Positions 42,107-54,921 of a DNA stretch of 64,000 nt are shown piece after piece. Source of the stretch: Halorientalis salina (GTDB lineage: Archaea; Halobacteriota; Halobacteria; Halobacteriales; Haloarculaceae). The number at the start of each line of letters is the position of its first letter. Within the stretch, counting starts at the first letter, position 1. The notes below the pieces were generated by a model that was not told where the DNA came from, did no database searches, and saw only the letters and a program-made list of their open reading frames with translations. The DNA is taken from positions 372,001 through 436,000 of the forward strand of contig NZ_SOSC01000001.1 in assembly GCF_005049285.1 (NCBI RefSeq). The letters are read 5' to 3'. Position numbers and translations under genes: made by a program.

Positions 42107-44443
42107 CTACCGGAGCGAGCGAGCCGAGTTCGTGACGACGAGCAGGCTCGAGGTCGTCATCGCGAGCGCGGCGAACAGTGGGTTGAGCAAGCCGGTCAGA
42201 GCCAGCGGGATGGCGACGGCGTTGTAGAGGAACGCCCACCCGAGGTTCTGCCGGATGCGACCGTGCGTGCCCTCCGAGATCTCGAACAGTGTGAGCACGC
42301 CCTGCAGGTCGTCTTCGAGGAGGATCGCGTCCGCGGCGTCGGTCGCAAGGTCGGTGCCGCTGCCGAGCGCGATCCCGAGGTCCGCCGCCGCCAGCGCGGG
42401 GGCGTCGTTGCTCCCGTCGCCCACCATCGCCACGGTCCCGCGGCCACGCAAGCGCTCGACGGTCTCTGCCTTCGCTTCCGGCGGGACTCCCGCAAAGACG
42501 TCGTCAATCCCCCGGTGGTTCCGGAACGGCTCTACGGCCTGACCCTTGTCGCCGGTCAGCACGACTACTTCTCGCGTGGCCGATAGCGACTCGACGACCG
42601 ACTTCCACTCCGGCCGCGGCGACTCGCCCAGTACCAGGATCGCCCGCGCCTGCCCGTCCCAGCCGACCGCGACCGGCCGGTTGCCGTCCTGTCGTGCCTG
42701 CTCGGCCCGCCGTTCGAGCGACTCTGGGACCGACAGCCCTTCGGCGTCGAGGAGTTCCGTGGTCCCGACGACCACGCGCTCGCCGTCGACGGTCCCACTG
42801 ACGCCGGTCGCGTGGTTCTCGAACTCGGTGGCGGTCGGCGGATCGTCGGCCGCGTCGACGACGGCTTCGGCGACCGGGTGACTCGACAGCGACTCGACCG
42901 CTGCGGCCCGGCGGAGCGCTTCATCAGGAGTCTCGCCAGCGACGTCGACGACCTGTAACTCGCCGGTCGTGAGCGTCCCCGTCTTGTCGAAGACGACCAC
43001 GTCGACCTCGGGGACTTCCTCGAAGACCGCTTCGGTGGCGACGACGATGCCGGCCGCCGAAGCCTCGCGCACGCCCGCGGCGATGGCGAGCGGCGTCGCG
43101 AGCCCCAGCGCGCAGGGACAGGAGACGATGAGCACAGTAAGGGCGATCAGGAGCGCGGCGACGCCGGCTCCCCCGGTCGCGAGCGTCCAGGCGGCGGCTA
43201 GCACCGCGAGGACGACGACGGTCGGGACGAACACCGTCGCGAGCCTGTCGGCCAGCCGCTGGATGCCGGGACGGGCGCTCTGGATGGACCAGAGCAGTTC
43301 CACGAGCCGGTCGAGCGTGCTCGTGGCGTCTGCGCTCACCTCGACCACGAGCGGCGCGTCGGTGACGACCGAGCCCCCGACGACCTCGTCGCCCGCGGTC
43401 TTGCGTTCGGGCATCGGTTCGCCGGTCAGCAGCGACTCGTCGACCGCCGCCGAGCCGTCGACGACGGCCCCATCGGTGGGAACCCGCTCGCCGGGCTTGA
43501 CGAGCACGCGGTCCCCGCCAGTCAGGTCGGCCACGTCGGCGGGTTCGGTGTCGCCGTCCCGATACCGGCGGGCCTCCTCGACCCGCGATTCGGTCAACTC
43601 CGAGAGCAGGCCGGCCGCGCGTCGTTTCACCCGCCGCTCGTAGTAGTTGCCGAGCGTCACCACGAGGACGATGGCGACGCTCACGTCGAAGTAGAGATGG
43701 GTCCGGCCCAGCAGTATCGCGACGGTGCTGTAGGCGTAGGAACTGACCGCCGCAAGCGCGACCAGCAGGTCCATGTTCGGATGGCCCGCCCGGAGGCTGA
43801 CGACGGCCCCGCGGAGGATCGGCCACCCGGTGTAGACCAGGACGACCGTGCTGAACAGCCAGACGTTCCCGAACAGGTAGAGGCCGGCGATGCCGCCGAG
43901 GTCGATGAACGGCGGATCGTACCCGAAGTAGGTCGGGTAGAGGAAGACGACGTACCACAGCATCACCATCATGCCGAAGAAGCCGCCGATGACGAGCGAC
44001 CAGACGGACTCGTCGGCCTCCGTGTCGTCGCCCGCACTGCGTTCGTGAGCCTGGTACCCGTAGCCCGAGACGGTCTCACCGAGTTCGCGTTCGTCCACCG
44101 CCTCGGGGTCGTACGCCAGTCGCATCGTGTCGGTCGCGTAGCTGGCGGTCGCGTCGTAGACGCCCTCGCGGTCGACCGCCCGCGATTCGAGGAACGCCTC
44201 GCAGGTCGCACAGTGCATCCCGTCGACGGCGAGATACGCCTCGTCGGCGTCCTCGGGAACGTCGGCCGTGGCCTCGCCGTCGAGACGCGATTCGACGGTC
44301 TGCTCGTCCGGGGCGTCGGCATCCGCCCCGTCGAGTGCCTTCGAGACTTCCAGACAGCCGCGACAGCAGAAGTCGCCGTCTACGGACTCGCCAGTGACCG
44401 GCGGGTCGGGCGTCGGCCGATCACAGAGGGTACACTCGGTCAT
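42107..44443 (-). CDS. Copper-translocating P1B-type ATPase, CcoI/FixI-like
   Basis: The protein has 778 residues. An N-terminal cysteine cluster (CTLCDRP, then FCCRGCLEV, as in CcoI/FixI) is followed by a heavy-metal domain with VDGMHCATCEAFLE. Eight membrane helices carry the ion motif CPC at 442-444 (VSCPCALGLATP). Other marks are the actuator TGEPMPE, the phosphorylated Asp486 in VVFDKTGTLTTGE, the nucleotide-domain SSHPVAEAV, and VGDGSNDAPALAAADLGIA. It pumps Cu+ outward, and CcoI-type pumps supply copper for heme-copper oxidase assembly. The gene directly abuts the SafE-type gene upstream, and the ba3 oxidase operon lies divergent beyond it. Confidence 0.93.
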   Translation of the reverse strand: MTECTLCDRPTPDPPVTGESVDGDFCCRGCLEVSKALDGADADAPDEQTVESRLDGEATADVPEDADEAYLAVDGMHCATCEAFLESRAVDREGVYDATASYATDTMRLAYDPEAVDERELGETVSGYGYQAHERSAGDDTEADESVWSLVIGGFFGMMVMLWYVVFLYPTYFGYDPPFIDLGGIAGLYLFGNVWLFSTVVLVYTGWPILRGAVVSLRAGHPNMDLLVALAAVSSYAYSTVAILLGRTHLYFDVSVAIVLVVTLGNYYERRVKRRAAGLLSELTESRVEEARRYRDGDTEPADVADLTGGDRVLVKPGERVPTDGAVVDGSAAVDESLLTGEPMPERKTAGDEVVGGSVVTDAPLVVEVSADATSTLDRLVELLWSIQSARPGIQRLADRLATVFVPTVVVLAVLAAAWTLATGGAGVAALLIALTVLIVSCPCALGLATPLAIAAGVREASAAGIVVATEAVFEEVPEVDVVVFDKTGTLTTGELQVVDVAGETPDEALRRAAAVESLSSHPVAEAVVDAADDPPTATEFENHATGVSGTVDGERVVVGTTELLDAEGLSVPESLERRAEQARQDGNRPVAVGWDGQARAILVLGESPRPEWKSVVESLSATREVVVLTGDKGQAVEPFRNHRGIDDVFAGVPPEAKAETVERLRGRGTVAMVGDGSNDAPALAAADLGIALGSGTDLATDAADAILLEDDLQGVLTLFEISEGTHGRIRQNLGWAFLYNAVAIPLALTGLLNPLFAALAMTTSSLLVVTNSARSLR

Positions 44444-45268
44444 CTATCCCACCAGCGGCTGATAGAACGGGACCGGGACGTGCGGGACGTGAATGCCCAA
44501 GAGCATCAGTCCGTGCGAGAGCGGGATGTACCCGAGCACGAGGAACGCCGCCCCGAGCAGTCGGTGGAGGCTCCGGCGATGCGCGTCCCCGATCGACCCC
44601 AACAGGGTCCCGTAGGCGAACAGCGTCGGAAAGGTCCCGAGTCCGAGGATACCGAGGCTGAGGGCGGCCCGGATCGGATCACCAAGCGCGAACGCGTACA
44701 CGTACGCGGGATACAAGATCGGACAGGGGAGCAGTCCGTGGATCGCGCCGAGTCCGACGATGCGTGGCGACCCGACCAGCGAGTCGACGCGTGCCGTCAG
44801 GACACCGGATATCCGCTGAAACGCGGTCCCGACGAACTCGGGGGTGAAGCGGTCGAGCGTCCCCGTCCCGCCAAGGAGGTACTGGAGGCCGGCGGCGATG
44901 ATGACGATCCCGACGGTGAGGCCGGCGACGATCCGAACCGCGCGTTCGACTGGGGGAATGCCGCCGACCGAGGCGAACAGGGCACCGCCCAGTACCGCGG
45001 CGAGTGCGCCGATAGCCGCGTAGCTCAGCGTCCGACCGAGGTTGAACAGCGCGTGTTGCCGGACGGCGAACGGCGTGAGGGTGTCGCCCCGTCGCCGCTC
45101 GGTCCCTGCGTCGATGCGGTCGGCGTACAGCGTCACCAGCGGGCCACACATCCCGAGGCAGTGCGCCCCGGCAAGCAGGCCGATGACCGCAAAGGCCAGC
45201 AGGTCGGCGTTCGCCCCGACCAGCTCGACGCCGGCCAGCTGGAGCGTGAGTCCTGGACGCACGGGCAT
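44444..45268 (-). CDS. SafE/TauE-like (DsbD-related) membrane protein, copper or oxidase assembly
   Basis: The protein has about 274 residues from the ATG at 45268, with a GTG one codon earlier. It has 6-7 membrane helices. The N-terminal GLLAGAHCLGMCGPLVTLYAD is the hallmark of the cytochrome-biogenesis/urease-accessory UreH-like group found beside ccoI genes. A C-terminal half motif GLLPCPILYPAYVYAF repeats the P-C-P pattern. The stop codon lies immediately before the ATPase ATG, so the two are cotranscribed. A role in copper delivery to the oxidase is inferred from this neighbourhood. Confidence 0.85.
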   Translation of the reverse strand: MPVRPGLTLQLAGVELVGANADLLAFAVIGLLAGAHCLGMCGPLVTLYADRIDAGTERRRGDTLTPFAVRQHALFNLGRTLSYAAIGALAAVLGGALFASVGGIPPVERAVRIVAGLTVGIVIIAAGLQYLLGGTGTLDRFTPEFVGTAFQRISGVLTARVDSLVGSPRIVGLGAIHGLLPCPILYPAYVYAFALGDPIRAALSLGILGLGTFPTLFAYGTLLGSIGDAHRRSLHRLLGAAFLVLGYIPLSHGLMLLGIHVPHVPVPFYQPLVG

Positions 45269-45303
45269 CACCGACCAATCAGTCGGGCGGTCACCACTGA
45301 CGC

Positions 45304-45519
45304 TCAGACCTCCGATCCGTGCGCGTCGTGTTCGGCGTGGTCGCCGTGGGGCGAGAACAGCAGGAACAGGCTCGTCCCGATGAGGACGACGTTGACCGAG
45401 GTGACGGCAGCTGCCAGATACTCGGGTTTGAGCAGTCCGAACGTCAGTACAGGAACGAGCGCCAGGAGCGCGATCGCGACGGCGATCCGGGCCGGAACCC
45501 GGGTGAGCAGGCTAGGCAT
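45304..45519 (-). CDS. Small cytochrome ba3 oxidase-associated membrane subunit
   Basis: The protein has 71 residues from the ATG at 45519 (MPSLLTRVPARIAVAIALLA), chosen because a TTTTATTT box lies 23-30 nt upstream (leaderless). It has two membrane helices and a His-rich C-terminus, SPHGDHAEHDAHGSEV, able to bind metal. Proteins of this size and pattern occur beside haloarchaeal ba3 oxidases. It is divergent from the oxidase operon across about 100 bp and is likely the first gene of the SafE-ATPase unit. Confidence 0.7.
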   Translation of the reverse strand: MPSLLTRVPARIAVAIALLALVPVLTFGLLKPEYLAAAVTSVNVVLIGTSLFLLFSPHGDHAEHDAHGSEV

Positions 45520-45620
45520 ATCCGAAAGAGACAGGCCGGTCAAATAAAACGATACGTCCCATTCCCAGAAGGTGAAAACAGTCCCTCAAAAGTTATATGA
45601 ACATCTTCGTAAGAGCGCAT
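45520..45620. promoter_or_regulatory. Bidirectional promoter for oxidase and copper-assembly units
   Basis: The minus-strand TTTTATTT (45542-45549) serves the small subunit at 45519. The plus-strand TTATATGA (45593-45600) serves the oxidase operon starting at 45621. Both spacings fit leaderless transcripts, so one short region can control both units. Confidence 0.6.
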
Positions 45621-45854
45621 ATGGTAGAGGCAGAAGCTGGTTCAGAAACACCCGCGGACGTACAGGCGCCGGACGCGTACGCTGACGGGACGCTTGTCCG
45701 CGATCCCGAGGTCGAAAATCCGCTCGGGCAGGAGGATTTCGACCCGAAGGGAACGCTAGCACTGTTACTCGTCTATTTCATCATCCTCACGTTGATGTGG
45801 ACGTTCATGTACTACGTCGAGTTCCTCGGAAACGGGCCGACGGTCATCGGGTGA
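45621..45854 (+). CDS. cbaD: Cytochrome ba3 oxidase small subunit (CbaD-like)
   Basis: The protein has 77 residues from the ATG at 45621 (MVEAEAGSETPADVQAPDAY). I chose this over an ATG eight codons earlier because the TATA-like TTATATGA would overlap the earlier start. It has a soluble acidic N-terminus and one membrane helix (TLALLLVYFIILTLMWTFMYYVEFLG). It stands as the first gene before subunits II and I, the place of cbaD in Natronomonas pharaonis. It probably corresponds to the single-helix subunit IIa of ba3 oxidases. Confidence 0.75.
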   Translation: MVEAEAGSETPADVQAPDAYADGTLVRDPEVENPLGQEDFDPKGTLALLLVYFIILTLMWTFMYYVEFLGNGPTVIG

Positions 45855-45858
45855 TCCT

Positions 45859-46425
45859 ATGCACGTACACAACTACGAAAAACTCTGGCTGCTCGCGTCA
45901 TTGGCGTTGATCGTCGGATTCATCTCGACCATCGTCTACGGTGCCGTCGGCGCTGGCGTCGTGATGGTCAACGACGAGGGCGGCCAGGTCAACGCGAGCG
46001 GGCTGAGCGAGCATCCGGAGTTCAACGACCCCGGAGTCCGGAAGGTCGGTCCGAACGAATACGAGGCATACGTCGTTGCCCAGCAGTTCGCGTTCAGTCC
46101 GGATCCCATCGAAGTGCCCGCCAACAGTACGGTAACGTTCTACGTGACGTCACGAGACGTGGTTCACGGGTTCGAGGTCGCAGGGACCAACGCGAACGCG
46201 ATGGTCGTCCCGGGCGAGGTTTCGAAGATGACCGTCGAGTTCAACGAGACTGACGAGTACGGTGTCGTCTGCAACGAGTATTGCGGCCAGGCGCACCACG
46301 ATATGGCGGGCGAAGTCATCGTCAAGGAGCCGGGGAACTTCACGCTGGACGACGCGGGCGAGTCGACGACAGCGCAGGCAACGAACGGCACAGACGAGAC
46401 CGCGAACGGGACGGGTGAATCATGA
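45859..46425 (+). CDS. cbaB: Cytochrome ba3 oxidase subunit II (CuA subunit)
   Basis: The protein has 188 residues. One N-terminal membrane anchor (WLLASLALIVGFISTIVYGAV) is followed by the cupredoxin domain outside the membrane: YEAYVVAQQFAFSPDPIEVPANSTVTF, DVVHGFEVAGTN (first CuA His) and VVCNEYCGQAHHDMAGEV (Cys, Glu, Cys, His, Met of the dinuclear CuA site). It takes electrons from halocyanin or a cytochrome and passes them to subunit I. The short single-helix form is characteristic of B-type (ba3) oxidases. Its stop overlaps cbaA by four bases. Confidence 0.94.
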   Translation: MHVHNYEKLWLLASLALIVGFISTIVYGAVGAGVVMVNDEGGQVNASGLSEHPEFNDPGVRKVGPNEYEAYVVAQQFAFSPDPIEVPANSTVTFYVTSRDVVHGFEVAGTNANAMVVPGEVSKMTVEFNETDEYGVVCNEYCGQAHHDMAGEVIVKEPGNFTLDDAGESTTAQATNGTDETANGTGES

Positions 46426-48191
46426 GTACGCCAACTGAATCCATATTGAACATCGGACGGACAGACGATGAGACCGCGTTACCAGCCGAATCGTTCATCG
46501 TGAAGTACCCGACAGTGGCCCGCGTCGTGCGGGTCTGTTTCGCCTACGCCTTCGTCGCACTGGCCGTCGGTGGCCTCTTCGGCGTGATCCAGGCGCTTCA
46601 CCGGACGAACGTCATCCGGGTCATCGACTCGGCCGATTACTACACGCTGTTGACGGCCCACGGTGTCTTCCTCGCCATCGTGTTCACCATCTTCTTCCTC
46701 GCGGGCGTGTTCGCGTGGGCGAACACGCGGAGCCTCGAACGGCCCCCGCTCAATCCACGGTTCACGTGGCTCTGGGTCGGCACGATGTCGGCCGGGACGC
46801 TGCTTTCCGGCGGGAGCATTCTCGCAGGGCTGGTGGCCGAGATCGACGTCAGCGCGGACGTGCTCTTTACGTTCTACGCGCCGCTCCAGGCCCATCCCCT
46901 CTTTTACATCGGGCTGGCGCTGTTCGTGGTCGGCACGTGGCTCGCCGGCATCGACTGGTTCCGCCAGTACCTCGACTGGCGGGCCGACAACCCCGACGAG
47001 CGCATCCCGCTCCAGTCGTTCATGGTGTTGACGACGATGCTGATGTGGTACCTCTCGACGCTGGGGGTCGCCATCGAGGTGGTCGTCTTCCTCATCCCGT
47101 GGTCGCTCGGACTGATGCCGGCCCCGACGCCGCTGTTGACCCGGACGCTGTTCTGGTTCTTCGGCCACCCGGTCGTCTACTTCTGGCTGATGCCGGCGTA
47201 CCTGATGTGGTACACCGTCCTGCCGAAACTCTCGGGCGGCCGGCTGTTCAGCGACCCGCTCGCTCGCGTCGTGTTCGTCCTCTTCCTCCTGCTTTCGACG
47301 CCGGTCGGGATCCACCACCAGTACCTGGACCCCGGGATCGCGGAGGGGTTCAAGTTCATCGCGATGACGAACACGATGTTCCTGCTGCTCCCGTCGCTGC
47401 TGACAGCGTTCACCGTCGTCGCGAGCGTCGAACACGGCGCACGTCAGAACGGCGGCGAGGGATACTTCGGCTGGTTGACAGCGCTTCCGTGGCGTGATCC
47501 GGCATTCACCGGAATGATGCTCGCCGGCCTGATGTTCGCCGCCGGCGGGTTCTCCGGGATGGTCAACGCAGGGATGAACATCAACTACCTGGTCCACAAC
47601 ACCATCTGGGTGCCGGGCCACTTCCACCTCACCGTCGGGACGGCCGTCGCGCTGACGTTCATGGCAGCGGCTTACTGGCTCGTCCCGCGAGTCACCGGTC
47701 GGGCCCTCTACAGCCGACCGATCGGCCTGTTCCAGGTCGTGCTCTGGTTCATCGGCATGACGTTCATGTCCGCCGCGATGCACCGGGGCGGCCTCGCAGG
47801 CATCCCGCGCCGAACGGCCGAACCGGAGTACTCGAAGTTCACGTTCGAGGCCGTCGTCGGTACCATCAGTAGCCTGCGGCTCCAGATCGCCTTCGGCGGC
47901 GTGTTGCTGTTCGTCTCGCTCGTGATCTTCCTCGCGAACATCGCACTCACCGCCGCGAACAACGAGCCTGCCACGGGCCTCAAGACTGACCTGCCGCCGG
48001 CGCTGTCCGGCCCCGAGCAGTCACCGCAGGTGCTCGACGAACTGAAGCTGTGGGCGATCATCGCCATCGTCCTGGTGATCCTGGCCTACAGCCTGCCGCT
48101 GTGGAGTATCATAAACGGTGCCGGCTTCTATCAGGACGGCATCACCGCCTCACCGCAGGTGGTCCAGCCGGTTCTGGAGGTGCTGATATGA
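46422..48191 (+). CDS. cbaA: Cytochrome ba3 oxidase subunit I (B-type heme-copper oxidase)
   Basis: The protein has 589 residues and about 13 membrane helices. LLTAHGVFLAIVFTIFF holds a heme ligand His. LFWFFGHPVVYFWLMPAYLMWY holds CuB His and cross-linked Tyr without the Glu of A-type enzymes, a B-type mark. STPVGIHHQYLDPGI holds the CuB His pair, and VHNTIWVPGHFHLTVGTAVALTFM holds the heme ligands. It reduces O2 to water with a single proton channel; B-type enzymes have high oxygen affinity. It belongs to the operon cbaD-cbaB-cbaA-small subunit with overlapping stops and starts. Confidence 0.96.
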   Translation: MSTPTESILNIGRTDDETALPAESFIVKYPTVARVVRVCFAYAFVALAVGGLFGVIQALHRTNVIRVIDSADYYTLLTAHGVFLAIVFTIFFLAGVFAWANTRSLERPPLNPRFTWLWVGTMSAGTLLSGGSILAGLVAEIDVSADVLFTFYAPLQAHPLFYIGLALFVVGTWLAGIDWFRQYLDWRADNPDERIPLQSFMVLTTMLMWYLSTLGVAIEVVVFLIPWSLGLMPAPTPLLTRTLFWFFGHPVVYFWLMPAYLMWYTVLPKLSGGRLFSDPLARVVFVLFLLLSTPVGIHHQYLDPGIAEGFKFIAMTNTMFLLLPSLLTAFTVVASVEHGARQNGGEGYFGWLTALPWRDPAFTGMMLAGLMFAAGGFSGMVNAGMNINYLVHNTIWVPGHFHLTVGTAVALTFMAAAYWLVPRVTGRALYSRPIGLFQVVLWFIGMTFMSAAMHRGGLAGIPRRTAEPEYSKFTFEAVVGTISSLRLQIAFGGVLLFVSLVIFLANIALTAANNEPATGLKTDLPPALSGPEQSPQVLDELKLWAIIAIVLVILAYSLPLWSIINGAGFYQDGITASPQVVQPVLEVLI

Positions 48192-50914: not shown

Positions 50915-51334
50915 ATGAACCGGCCAGCCAGTGCGATTCTCGGGGGAGCGGTCGGAACGACGGTGATGTCGGTCATGCTCGCGATCATGGAGGTAGAGGC
51001 CAGGGGCGTGATGGGGTTGTTCGACGCCATCGCGCGGTTCGCGCGCGTCCCGGGGAACCAGTTCCTCGGGTTCGTCGTCTACGCCGTCGTCGGCGTGGTC
51101 GTCTGGCCGCTCCTCTTTCTCGGTCTCGAACGGTACGTCGGTCCCGAACGGGACTCGGCAGTCACGGGAATGGGGATGGGGCTGCTCCTCTGGTTCGGGT
51201 TCGCGGTCATCGGCCGGGGAGAGGTCGGCGGTGTCCTCCTCATGGTCTATCTCGTGTTCACTTTGCTCGCACATCTGGCCTACGGGTTCACACTCGGGGC
51301 CGTGTACGACCGGCTCTCGGAAGAGCCGACGTGA
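50915..51334 (+). CDS. Conserved membrane protein (DUF6789-like) beside cox genes
   Basis: The protein has 139 residues from the ATG at 50915 (MNRPASAILGGAVGTTVMSV), with GGAAGGA just before it. It has four membrane helices, with EVEARGVMGLFDAIARFARVPGN between the first two. It resembles a family often found next to haloarchaeal cytochrome oxidase genes. It starts 80 nt before the oxidase I-II gene on the same strand. The role is unknown; oxidase assembly is a positional guess. Confidence 0.75.
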   Translation: MNRPASAILGGAVGTTVMSVMLAIMEVEARGVMGLFDAIARFARVPGNQFLGFVVYAVVGVVVWPLLFLGLERYVGPERDSAVTGMGMGLLLWFGFAVIGRGEVGGVLLMVYLVFTLLAHLAYGFTLGAVYDRLSEEPT

Positions 51335-51414: not shown

Positions 51415-54054
51415 ATGACCGCTGGGTTGCTCGTCGGGGTGGCAGCGGTGGGTGGCGTCGGCGTCGTTTTCACGGCCGATCGTACCGACGAATCCGGCCC
51501 GACGAGCAGCGCCGCGAGCGAGGATTCGGCCCCGGACAGGGAGAAACCGAGCGGCCTCGTCCGGTGGTTCACGACGGTCGACCACAAGGACATCGGGCTG
51601 CTGTATCTGGCGTTCGGCACGTTCGCCGGTCTGTGGGGCGGCATGGACGCGATGATGATGCGGGCCGAACTCTGGACGACCGAGCCGTCGGTCTGGGGGC
51701 TCGACACCTACAACGCCCTGTTTACCACCCACGGGATCATGATGCTGTTTTTCTTCGCGGCCCCGGTGTTCGCGGGCATCGCCAACTACGTCCTCCCCTT
51801 GCTCATCGGGGCCGACGACATGGCGTACCCGCGGATCAACGCCATCGCGTTCTGGTTGCTCCCGCCCGCGCTCTTTCTGGTCCGGGCCGGCCTCATCACC
51901 GAGGTCGCGGGGAAGACGTTCCTGTTTACGGTCGGGCAACTCCCCCTGGGCGGGACGCCGTTCGTCGGCGTGCTGGATTTCGTCCAGAAACTACTCGCGT
52001 TAGAGCCGCCAACGACAGGCTGGACGCTGTACGCGCCGCTGTCGATTCAGCAACCGAACGAGCAGATCGACCTGCTCTTGCTGGGGCTGCATCTCAGTGG
52101 CATCTCGACCACGATGGGAGCGATCAACTTCATCGCGACCATCTTCACGGAGCGCGCCGAGGGAGTGTCCTGGGCCAACCTGGACCTGTTCTCCTGGAAC
52201 ATGCTAACCCAGTCGGGTATCATCCTGTTCGCGTTCCCGGTGCTCGGGAGCACGCTCATCATGTTGCTGCTTGACCGCAACTTCGGGACGACCTTCTTCG
52301 TCGCCGACGGCGGCGGCCCGATCCTCTACCAGCACCTCTTCTGGTTTTTCGGCCACCCCGAGGTGTACATCCTCGCGCTGCCGGCCCTGGGGCTGGTGAG
52401 TCTCATCCTCCCGAAGTTCGCGGGACGGCGACTCTTCGGCTACCGGTTCGTCGTCTACTCGACGCTGGCCATCGGCGTCCTCTCCTTCGGCGTCTGGGCC
52501 CACCACATGTTCGCGACCGGGATCGACCCCCGCATCCGCATGAGTTTCATGGTCGTCTCCATCGCCATCGCCGTCCCCTCGGCGATCAAGACGTTCAACT
52601 GGCTGACGACGATGTGGAACGGCCGGATTCGACTCCGGGCACCCATGGTCTTCTGTATCACCGGCATCGCACTGTTCGTCGTCGGCGGCGTCACGGGCGT
52701 GTTCCTCGCCTCCGTCCCCTACGACATCGTCGTCCACGGCACCTACTACGTCGTCGCGCACTTCCATTTCATCATCGTGGGGATCATCCCGTTCGGGATG
52801 TTCGCGGCCAGTTACTACTGGTTCCCGCTGATCACGGGCCGGATGTACAGCCGGCCCCTGGCGCTGATACACGCCGTCCTGACGACCGTCGGCGTCTTCG
52901 TGACCTTTCTCCCGCTGTTCGTCGTCGGAGCCGAAGGGCTCCCGCGCCGGTCCGCGCTCTACCCCGAGCGGTTCCTCCCCCTCCAACAGGCGGCCACGGT
53001 CGGGGCCGTGCTGATCGGGCTCAGCGCCGTAGTCTGGCTGTTCAACATGTTGCAGTCCTACCGTGTCGGCACGCCGGTCGAGGACGGCGACCCCTGGGAC
53101 CTGGGCGCGACCGGCCAGTACACCAGGGAGTGGACAGACCTCCGAGACCGACTGGACGGCGATAAGGGACGGGGCGGAGACGCAGGCGATGGATCCGACG
53201 AGGGCGAAGTCTCACCCGGTACGAGCGACACACCGGGACACGAGGAGCGACCGTCAGAGCCGACGGTTCCGACGGCGGTCAGCGAGCGCGGCGGGATGAA
53301 ACTCGTCGGCGTCGTCTTCCTCGGCATCGTCGCCCTGGCGGCCGTCGGACAGGTCGGCCTGCCGCTCTCGCGGTTCGACTCGACGACCGAGACGCTGATC
53401 CGGACGCTCAACCGACAGCTACTGCTCGTCGCCGTCCCGCTCATCGTCTTCGTCGAGGCGGTCCTGGTGTACATCGTCTGGCGGTTCCGGAGGAAGGAAA
53501 CCCCCGTTCCGACCCCGGAGAACCGGAACCTCGAAATCGCGTGGACGATCGCGACGGCGTTCGTGCTCGTGTTCGTCGGCGTGATCTCCTATCAGGTGTT
53601 GGCCCACCCAGACGTGGCCTCGACGCCGGACACCGCCGAACCGGTGGGCGAGAACGTCACCGAGATCGAGGTCGTCTCCCATCAGTGGTACTACAGTGCC
53701 GGGTACGCCGACGCGAACGTCTCCGACGAACGGGCCGACGTGATCTACGTTCCGACCGACAGACCGGTCCGGTTCAGCGTGACCACGACGGACGTGATCC
53801 ACTCCTTCTACGTCCCGGACCTGGGTGTGAAACAGGACGCCATCCCCGGCCAGGAGAACCTGGTTCGGACGACCGTCACCGAACCGGGGAACTACACGCT
53901 CTACTGCGGCGAGTACTGCGGCGAGGGGCACGCGCGGATGAAAACGACAGTGCGCGCGCTACCGCCGGAGGAGTACCGCCAGCGCGTCGACCGGCTTCGC
54001 GGTCGGGCCGAGCGGAACCAGTCCGGCCTGCGGGTCGGACTCCCCGAGTCGTAA
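51415..54054 (+). CDS. Cytochrome c oxidase subunit I-subunit II fusion (A-type)
   Basis: The protein has 879 residues in one uninterrupted frame. Residues 45-560 are A-type subunit I: TTHGIMMLFFFAAPVFAG (heme His), LFWFFGHPEVYILALPALG (CuB His, Glu, Tyr), VWAHHMFATGIDPR (CuB His pair), VVHGTYYVVAHFHFIIVG (heme ligands). Residues 575-620 are a Gly/Asp/Ser-rich linker. Residues 625-879 are subunit II, with membrane helices and a cupredoxin domain: EVVSHQWYYSAGYADANV, DVIHSFYVPDLGVKQDAIPG and LYCGEYCGEGHARMKTTV (full CuA set). It is a terminal oxidase that pumps protons. I-III fusions are known; I-II in this order is unusual. Subunit III lies convergent just downstream. Confidence 0.93.
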   Translation: MTAGLLVGVAAVGGVGVVFTADRTDESGPTSSAASEDSAPDREKPSGLVRWFTTVDHKDIGLLYLAFGTFAGLWGGMDAMMMRAELWTTEPSVWGLDTYNALFTTHGIMMLFFFAAPVFAGIANYVLPLLIGADDMAYPRINAIAFWLLPPALFLVRAGLITEVAGKTFLFTVGQLPLGGTPFVGVLDFVQKLLALEPPTTGWTLYAPLSIQQPNEQIDLLLLGLHLSGISTTMGAINFIATIFTERAEGVSWANLDLFSWNMLTQSGIILFAFPVLGSTLIMLLLDRNFGTTFFVADGGGPILYQHLFWFFGHPEVYILALPALGLVSLILPKFAGRRLFGYRFVVYSTLAIGVLSFGVWAHHMFATGIDPRIRMSFMVVSIAIAVPSAIKTFNWLTTMWNGRIRLRAPMVFCITGIALFVVGGVTGVFLASVPYDIVVHGTYYVVAHFHFIIVGIIPFGMFAASYYWFPLITGRMYSRPLALIHAVLTTVGVFVTFLPLFVVGAEGLPRRSALYPERFLPLQQAATVGAVLIGLSAVVWLFNMLQSYRVGTPVEDGDPWDLGATGQYTREWTDLRDRLDGDKGRGGDAGDGSDEGEVSPGTSDTPGHEERPSEPTVPTAVSERGGMKLVGVVFLGIVALAAVGQVGLPLSRFDSTTETLIRTLNRQLLLVAVPLIVFVEAVLVYIVWRFRRKETPVPTPENRNLEIAWTIATAFVLVFVGVISYQVLAHPDVASTPDTAEPVGENVTEIEVVSHQWYYSAGYADANVSDERADVIYVPTDRPVRFSVTTTDVIHSFYVPDLGVKQDAIPGQENLVRTTVTEPGNYTLYCGEYCGEGHARMKTTVRALPPEEYRQRVDRLRGRAERNQSGLRVGLPES

Positions 54055-54072: not shown

Positions 54073-54921
54073 TCAGTCGACCGCCGCGCCGACGTACAGG
54101 GAGACGACCAGGAACACCCACACCACGTCGACGAAGTGCCAGTACATTGCAGCGACCGTCACGGAGGCGTCCCGCTCCGGAGAATACTGACCGGCAACGG
54201 ATCGGAGCAGGACGATGCCGATGATCACCAGCCCGAGCGCGACGTGCATCCCGTGGAGCCCGGTCAGCCCGTAGAACGCGCTGAAGTAGATACCGCTCCC
54301 CAGCGTGAAGCCCTCCCTGACGACGAACTCGTAGTACTCGACGAGTTGGCCACCCAGGAACACCGTTCCAAGCAACTGGGTTACCGCGAGCCAGCGGACG
54401 TACCGCTTGCGGTCACCGCCGCGCAGACGGAGGTGTGCGAGGTGCATCGTGACGCTGCTCGTCACCAGGATGACGGTGTTGAAGAGGACGAGCGAGGTGA
54501 GCAGGTGCGGGAGTTCGCCCGGCGGCCACGTCCCGTATCGTACCCAGAAGTAGTAGGCGAACCCAGCGCCGAACGTCCCCAGATCGGTCGCGAGGAAGAG
54601 CACCATTCCCCAGCGATACTTTGCGTCGTCGCCGGTCGCACGCGACCAGTAGTGATGGACGAAGGCGTGGTAGGTCCAGCCGTAGAGGCCGATCAGAAAG
54701 AGCCCGGTCCCGAGGACGAACACGAACGGGCCGAAGATAGGTGCAAAAAGCGGTTCCTGGCCGAACGCGAGGACGAACAGCCCGGCCCCGGCGTACATCC
54801 CGACTGCGCCGACGGTGGTGACGATGGGCCACCAACTGGCCTCGCCGAATCCCTTGGGCCAGTCCTCGACGGCCGGGAGGTGATGGCTGGACTCGTCGGT
54901 CTCGGACTCTGGCGAACCCAT
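54073..54921 (-). CDS. Cytochrome c oxidase subunit III
   Basis: The protein has 282 residues and seven membrane helices. Subunit III marks: YAYYFWVRYGTWPPGELPHLL-like segment in outline, LVLFNTVILVTSSVTMHLAHLRLRGG, LVEYYEFVVREGFTLGSGIYFSAFYGLTGLHGMHVALGLVII in outline, then MYWHFVDVVWVFLVVSLY at the C-terminus, the most conserved part of the family. It stabilises subunit I and guides oxygen and protons. It converges with the I-II fusion gene with a gap of 18 nt, so the three oxidase parts come from two transcripts. Confidence 0.94.
   Translation of the reverse strand: MGSPESETDESSHHLPAVEDWPKGFGEASWWPIVTTVGAVGMYAGAGLFVLAFGQEPLFAPIFGPFVFVLGTGLFLIGLYGWTYHAFVHHYWSRATGDDAKYRWGMVLFLATDLGTFGAGFAYYFWVRYGTWPPGELPHLLTSLVLFNTVILVTSSVTMHLAHLRLRGGDRKRYVRWLAVTQLLGTVFLGGQLVEYYEFVVREGFTLGSGIYFSAFYGLTGLHGMHVALGLVIIGIVLLRSVAGQYSPERDASVTVAAMYWHFVDVVWVFLVVSLYVGAAVD

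Follow-up and report, generated by a model that had tools for sequence, protein, structure and literature searches.

Subunits I and II of an A-type cytochrome oxidase in a single reading frame of Halorientalis salina and Halosimplex

The fused gene and its surroundings

The window analysed here, a stretch of 64,000 nucleotides from the genome of Halorientalis salina, contains a single open frame of 879 codons (51415-54054, + strand, ATG to TAA) in which COX1, COX2_TM and COX2 domains follow one another. The predicted mass of the encoded chain (879 aa) is 96.07 kDa. The subunit I part (residues 1-575, 51415-53139) carries the Pfam COX1 match (residues 59-533, E 3.7e-142) and resembles solved subunit I chains with a TM score of about 0.9 by target length (Foldseek). 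The linker that follows (residues 576-626, 53140-53292) is acidic, about 50 residues long and enriched in Gly, Asp, Glu, Ser and Pro; it leads to an added helix, here called TM13 (residues 625-648, 53287-53358, hydropathy 2.33), and on to subunit II proper (residues 649-879, 53359-54051). The latter comprises two membrane helices (657-691 and 701-730) followed by the outside CuA domain, with Pfam matches to COX2_TM at residues 661-728 and to COX2 at 776-847. These domain searches agree with a preliminary description of the locus, which had read the frame as a complete A-type subunit I, a linker and a complete subunit II; its account of the linker as Gly-, Asp- and Ser-rich also holds, with Glu and Pro to be added.

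Over residues 659-856 the protein scores above the curated cut-off of the NCBIfam model CoxB (TIGR02866; 180.9 bits against 147.7). The subunit I part does not reach that of the equivalog model CtaD_CoxA (TIGR02891; 617.7 bits, cut-off 670.75), which indicates that it belongs to the same superfamily but has diverged from the model's reference group. Ahead of the canonical 12 helices of subunit I, hydropathy and AlphaFold both place an additional N-terminal hydrophobic helix at residues 2-18, in a region (residues 1-36) that lies below pLDDT 50 in the model.

The residues expected of an active oxidase are conserved. Invariant in an alignment of the six fused proteins described below are H106, H314, H363, H364, H449 and H451, which from Paracoccus and bovine motifs we take to be the heme and CuB histidines, and Y318, presumably the cross-linked tyrosine of the HPEVY motif. 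The same holds for D135, N142, N124 and E316, taken on motif grounds to correspond to the D-channel residues D124, N131, N113 and E278 of Paracoccus, and for K392, presumably K354 of the K-channel. As had been claimed from the window, all CuA ligands are present in the subunit II part (H796, C831, E833, C835, H839 and M842; 53800-53940); the six are invariant across the fused proteins, and in an alignment of 44 subunit II sequences the two His, both Cys and the Met are invariant and the Glu nearly so. The region of the electron-entry tryptophan reads QWYY in the window versus QF(N/D/S)Y in Halosimplex. Judging from these residues, the enzyme chemistry should be that of an ordinary A1-type oxidase.

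Immediately upstream lies a gene for a DUF6789 membrane protein (50915-51334, + strand; Pfam PF20587, E 2.9e-38), an arrangement found with all six fused genes. Downstream and convergent with the fused gene is a separate subunit III gene (54073-54921, - strand; Pfam COX3, E 6.9e-28), in accordance with its earlier placement on the opposite strand. The fused gene is unique in this genome, which also encodes three other A-type subunit I proteins, one further subunit II and an oxidase of ba3 type. The ba3-type oxidase is in the window (subunit II 45859-46425, subunit I 46422-48191) and adjoins genes for a DsbD/CcdA-like protein (44444-45271) and a heavy-metal P-type ATPase (42107-44443), so that the region 42107-48191 is likely a cluster for copper delivery and oxidase. 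In the genome's other A-type subunit II (L008; G000 contig C11, 323037-323993), the outside domain contains, ahead of the CuA site, an insert of some 60 residues made up of Thr/Ser/Asp/Val-rich repeats.

DUF6789 itself appears to serve this A-type oxidase as an as yet uncharacterised assembly factor or accessory subunit. In the window and in many relatives it is encoded by a separate gene beside that of subunit I. In a sister clade including Haloarcula, Halorientalis, Natrialbaceae and others, subunit I carries it as a C-terminal fusion (L009, L010, L011, L129-L140, L031, L028-L030). One such fused subunit I is labelled at NCBI only as "DUF6789 family protein" (WP_276239728.1), and a search of the literature on DUF6789 found nothing relevant.

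Relatives and origin of the fusion

The same fusion, as one intact frame each, was found in five Halosimplex genomes in a search of 146 genomes of the same family, with 63-66% identity over the whole chain. One of the carriers (G088) is Halosimplex aquaticum, in which a 12-kb stretch of contig C2 is identical to plasmid NZ_CP118159.1. Whether homologues are fused or split, a check put forward in the preliminary description, can thus be answered: they are fused in six genomes of two genera, and split elsewhere among the haloarchaea examined. No I-II fusion was detected above the thresholds used in the 125, 170 and 28 genomes of three further haloarchaeal families, no frame with both subunits among the 80 loci, most of them bacterial, of a contig search, and no place covering 80% of the fused query in plasmid records. 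Long subunit II frames in four genomes (G069, G213, G287 and G256) had been candidates for further fusions; the same frame lacks subunit I in each, and these are chance extensions in G+C-rich DNA. In an order-wide search with subunit II, the fused proteins rank far above all else.

A sequencing or assembly indel that conceals a stop and a start between two ordinary adjacent genes would give the same appearance. The unfused adjacent order does occur (in G126 and at L187, see below), and in G126 an assembly defect even mimics a fusion: about 37 codons from within subunit I are missing in the contig, the gene in fact ends in a stop, and this genome was accordingly rejected as a seventh case. Such an error at the present locus is nevertheless as good as ruled out, because the five relatives hold the same order as independent intact frames, with linkers that differ and contain no stops. 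Linker length varies from one fused gene to another, within Halosimplex every indel is in frame, and the DNA of the linker has the codon-position G+C pattern of coding DNA. The earlier reading of a true I-to-II fusion with no hidden indel is therefore upheld.

Trees were built for each subunit from haloarchaeal sequences with an alpha-/betaproteobacterial outgroup. Both parts of the fused protein fall among haloarchaeal sequences with starred support, apart from the outgroup, which speaks against a mitochondrial descent, and the six fused sequences form one clade for subunit I (SH-aLRT 99) as well as for subunit II (support 100/97). A single fusion event is therefore the simplest account of all six genes. 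The distribution over one Halorientalis and five Halosimplex genomes could reflect old inheritance with loss, or transfer between the genera. Nearest to the fused clade in the subunit II tree, with moderate support (86/75), is the sequence of G126. Here the genes for DUF6789, subunit I and subunit II lie in this order on one strand and are unfused, those of subunits I and II sharing a 4-base GTGA stop/start overlap. This tandem order is likely the expected precursor of the fusion: starting from an operon of this kind, loss of the subunit I stop together with gain of a linker would yield the fused gene. Other arrangements occur as well. In the Halorientalis relatives G001, G003 and G006 and in Haloarcula, subunit I is fused to DUF6789 and subunit II is divergent, and other lineages have operons in the order subunit II, DUF6789, subunit I. 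A second unfused tandem (L187, in G282) has overlapping frames for subunits I, II and III on one strand, without DUF6789.

Topology of the junction and fate of the chain

Established structures show that subunit I ends on the cytoplasmic side of the membrane and that subunit II begins outside. A direct fusion of the two would thus be topologically wrong, and one extra membrane crossing is needed. The preliminary description overlooked this problem, and with it the cytoplasmic side of the linker and the retained signal peptide as enabler of the fusion. Split haloarchaeal subunit II proteins begin with a signal peptide that ends in a motif such as PAAAQ; all 54 distinct split sequences examined have a signal peptidase-like site (small-x-Ala) 7-14 residues before the LNxxLL anchor of the first helix. 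In the six fused proteins this arrangement of a canonical site and polar c-region is absent: the nearest small-x-Ala motif lies 20-28 residues from the anchor, within a hydrophobic stretch (for example, ALA in the window and VVA in Halosimplex), and the segment ends in LPLxxFDSxTExLIRTLNR. TM13 is thus likely to be the former signal peptide of subunit II, devoid of its canonical cleavage region.

Structure prediction and selection point the same way. In the AlphaFold model, residues 625-648 form a helix that is preceded by a disordered linker (pLDDT <50 at 595-628) and followed by the two helices of subunit II. Since lone subunit II rows were partly misplaced on subunit I in the alignment behind this first model, a second was made for the C-terminal 340 residues with a clean alignment, and gave the same helix with better confidence (block means in the TM13 region of 67-82, compared with 43-55). 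Within Halosimplex, omega is 0.06-0.20 for TM13, values that rest on about 30 codons, and 0.32-1.20 for the linker, which is under relaxed selection, 0.12-0.43 for subunit II and 0.08-0.18 for subunit I. In split subunit II of Haloarcula, omega is 0.47 in the signal peptide versus 0.09 in the mature part. The contrast points to a disposable signal that may have become a constrained helix. With TM13 as a membrane helix the linker would lie in the cytoplasm.

Taken together, it seems fairly probable that the gene encodes a functional haloarchaeal A1-type CuA oxygen reductase with subunits I and II translated as one chain, with the operon history, the TM13 topology and the uncut chain described here. 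The more specific proposal, that the core of a terminal oxidase from the oxygen site to CuA entry would be one polypeptide by virtue of a cleaved signal peptide turned permanent helix, is one towards which the evidence leans. Subunit I would end in the cytoplasm and the acidic linker would remain on that side; the old signal peptide, its canonical cleavage region lost, would be kept as TM13 and bring the chain outside, so that the two helices and the CuA domain of subunit II take up their normal position. Electrons would enter at CuA from an outside donor, by analogy halocyanin, which probably has this role in haloarchaea (PMC8305020), and move on as usual through heme a to heme a3/CuB. By the fusion, subunits I and II would be coupled 1:1 in their synthesis and assembly.

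The product could instead be a polyprotein, translated as one chain and cut by signal peptidase or another protease at or after TM13 to give ordinary subunits I and II. The descent of the junction helix from a signal peptide, the small-x-Ala motifs still within it and the poor conservation of the linker would fit such processing, as would the two products that the mitochondrial cox1/2 frame of Acanthamoeba yields (PMC5626475). We consider this unlikely, given that none of the six fused proteins has the canonical c-region seen in each of the 54 split relatives and that the helix, unlike the signal peptide of split Haloarcula proteins, is under strong purifying selection. It is very improbable, too, that a separate subunit II is produced in addition from a start site or promoter within the gene, close to the junction: residue 628 is an in-frame ATG in the window only, Halosimplex has no start codon there and its GTG codons are inside the helix, past its basic end, so that no internal start codon at the junction is common to the six fused genes; nor was a TATA-like sequence seen by eye in the linker of the window. 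A decaying, non-functional extra copy would be conceivable in a genome so well supplied with other oxidases, yet it is scarcely credible with all ligands conserved, the frame intact and the related Halosimplex genes under purifying selection, as the subunit I values above attest. The fused chain most likely stays uncut. Nevertheless, the small-x-Ala motifs remaining in the hydrophobic stretch would still allow cleavage, which makes a fixed 1:1 stoichiometry in the mature enzyme a proposal only.

Comparison with known oxidases and significance

The closest known systems are the split haloarchaeal A-type oxidases with DUF6789, which share the subunit I (60-69% identity), the DUF6789 partner and the catalytic residues, but have a separate gene for subunit II, the signal peptide of which looks cleavable. 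One sister clade of these joins DUF6789, and not subunit II, to the C-terminal end of subunit I. The canonical aa3 oxidases (Paracoccus 1ar1, Rhodobacter 1m56, bovine 1occ) have the same folds (TM about 0.9 for subunit I, Z 13-18 for subunit II) in separate chains without a linker. No clear counterpart of TM13 was found in solved subunit II chains, the alignment covering mostly model residue 104 onward. Fusions of subunits I and III are common, as in SoxM of Sulfolobus, the caa3 oxidase of Thermus and HVO_1645 (coxAC2) of Haloferax; these are also subunit fusions in A-type oxidases, but the C-terminal partner is subunit III, not II. To our knowledge, I-II fusions were previously known only from mitochondria, and we know of no description of a converted signal peptide for the mitochondrial frames. 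Two loci of other Halorientalis species (L020 and L026) encode an oxidase in which subunits I and III are fused and subunit II overlaps by a few bases.

The view from which we started, that known fusions usually join I to III, is borne out by a survey of archaeal gene fusions, in which only I-III is named for complex IV (PMC11237513), but it has to be amended by a precedent for the I-to-II order. Continuous cox1/2 frames occur in the mitochondria of Acanthamoeba, Dictyostelium, Polysphondylium, Paracercomonas and some Pleosporales (fungi); subunit II likewise comes after subunit I within a single frame (PMC5626475), but the origin of these frames is unrelated. No report of an I-II fusion in a prokaryote was found in the literature.

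A fusion hitherto known to us only from mitochondria has thus also arisen in an archaeon. Topology limits the fusion of membrane subunits, and in this case the sequence itself reveals a likely escape from this limit: a signal peptide that has lost its cut site may have become a constrained helix, and an unfused tandem relative represents the likely prior step. The fused protein would also offer a natural single-chain catalytic core for studying the assembly of CuA and subunit I.
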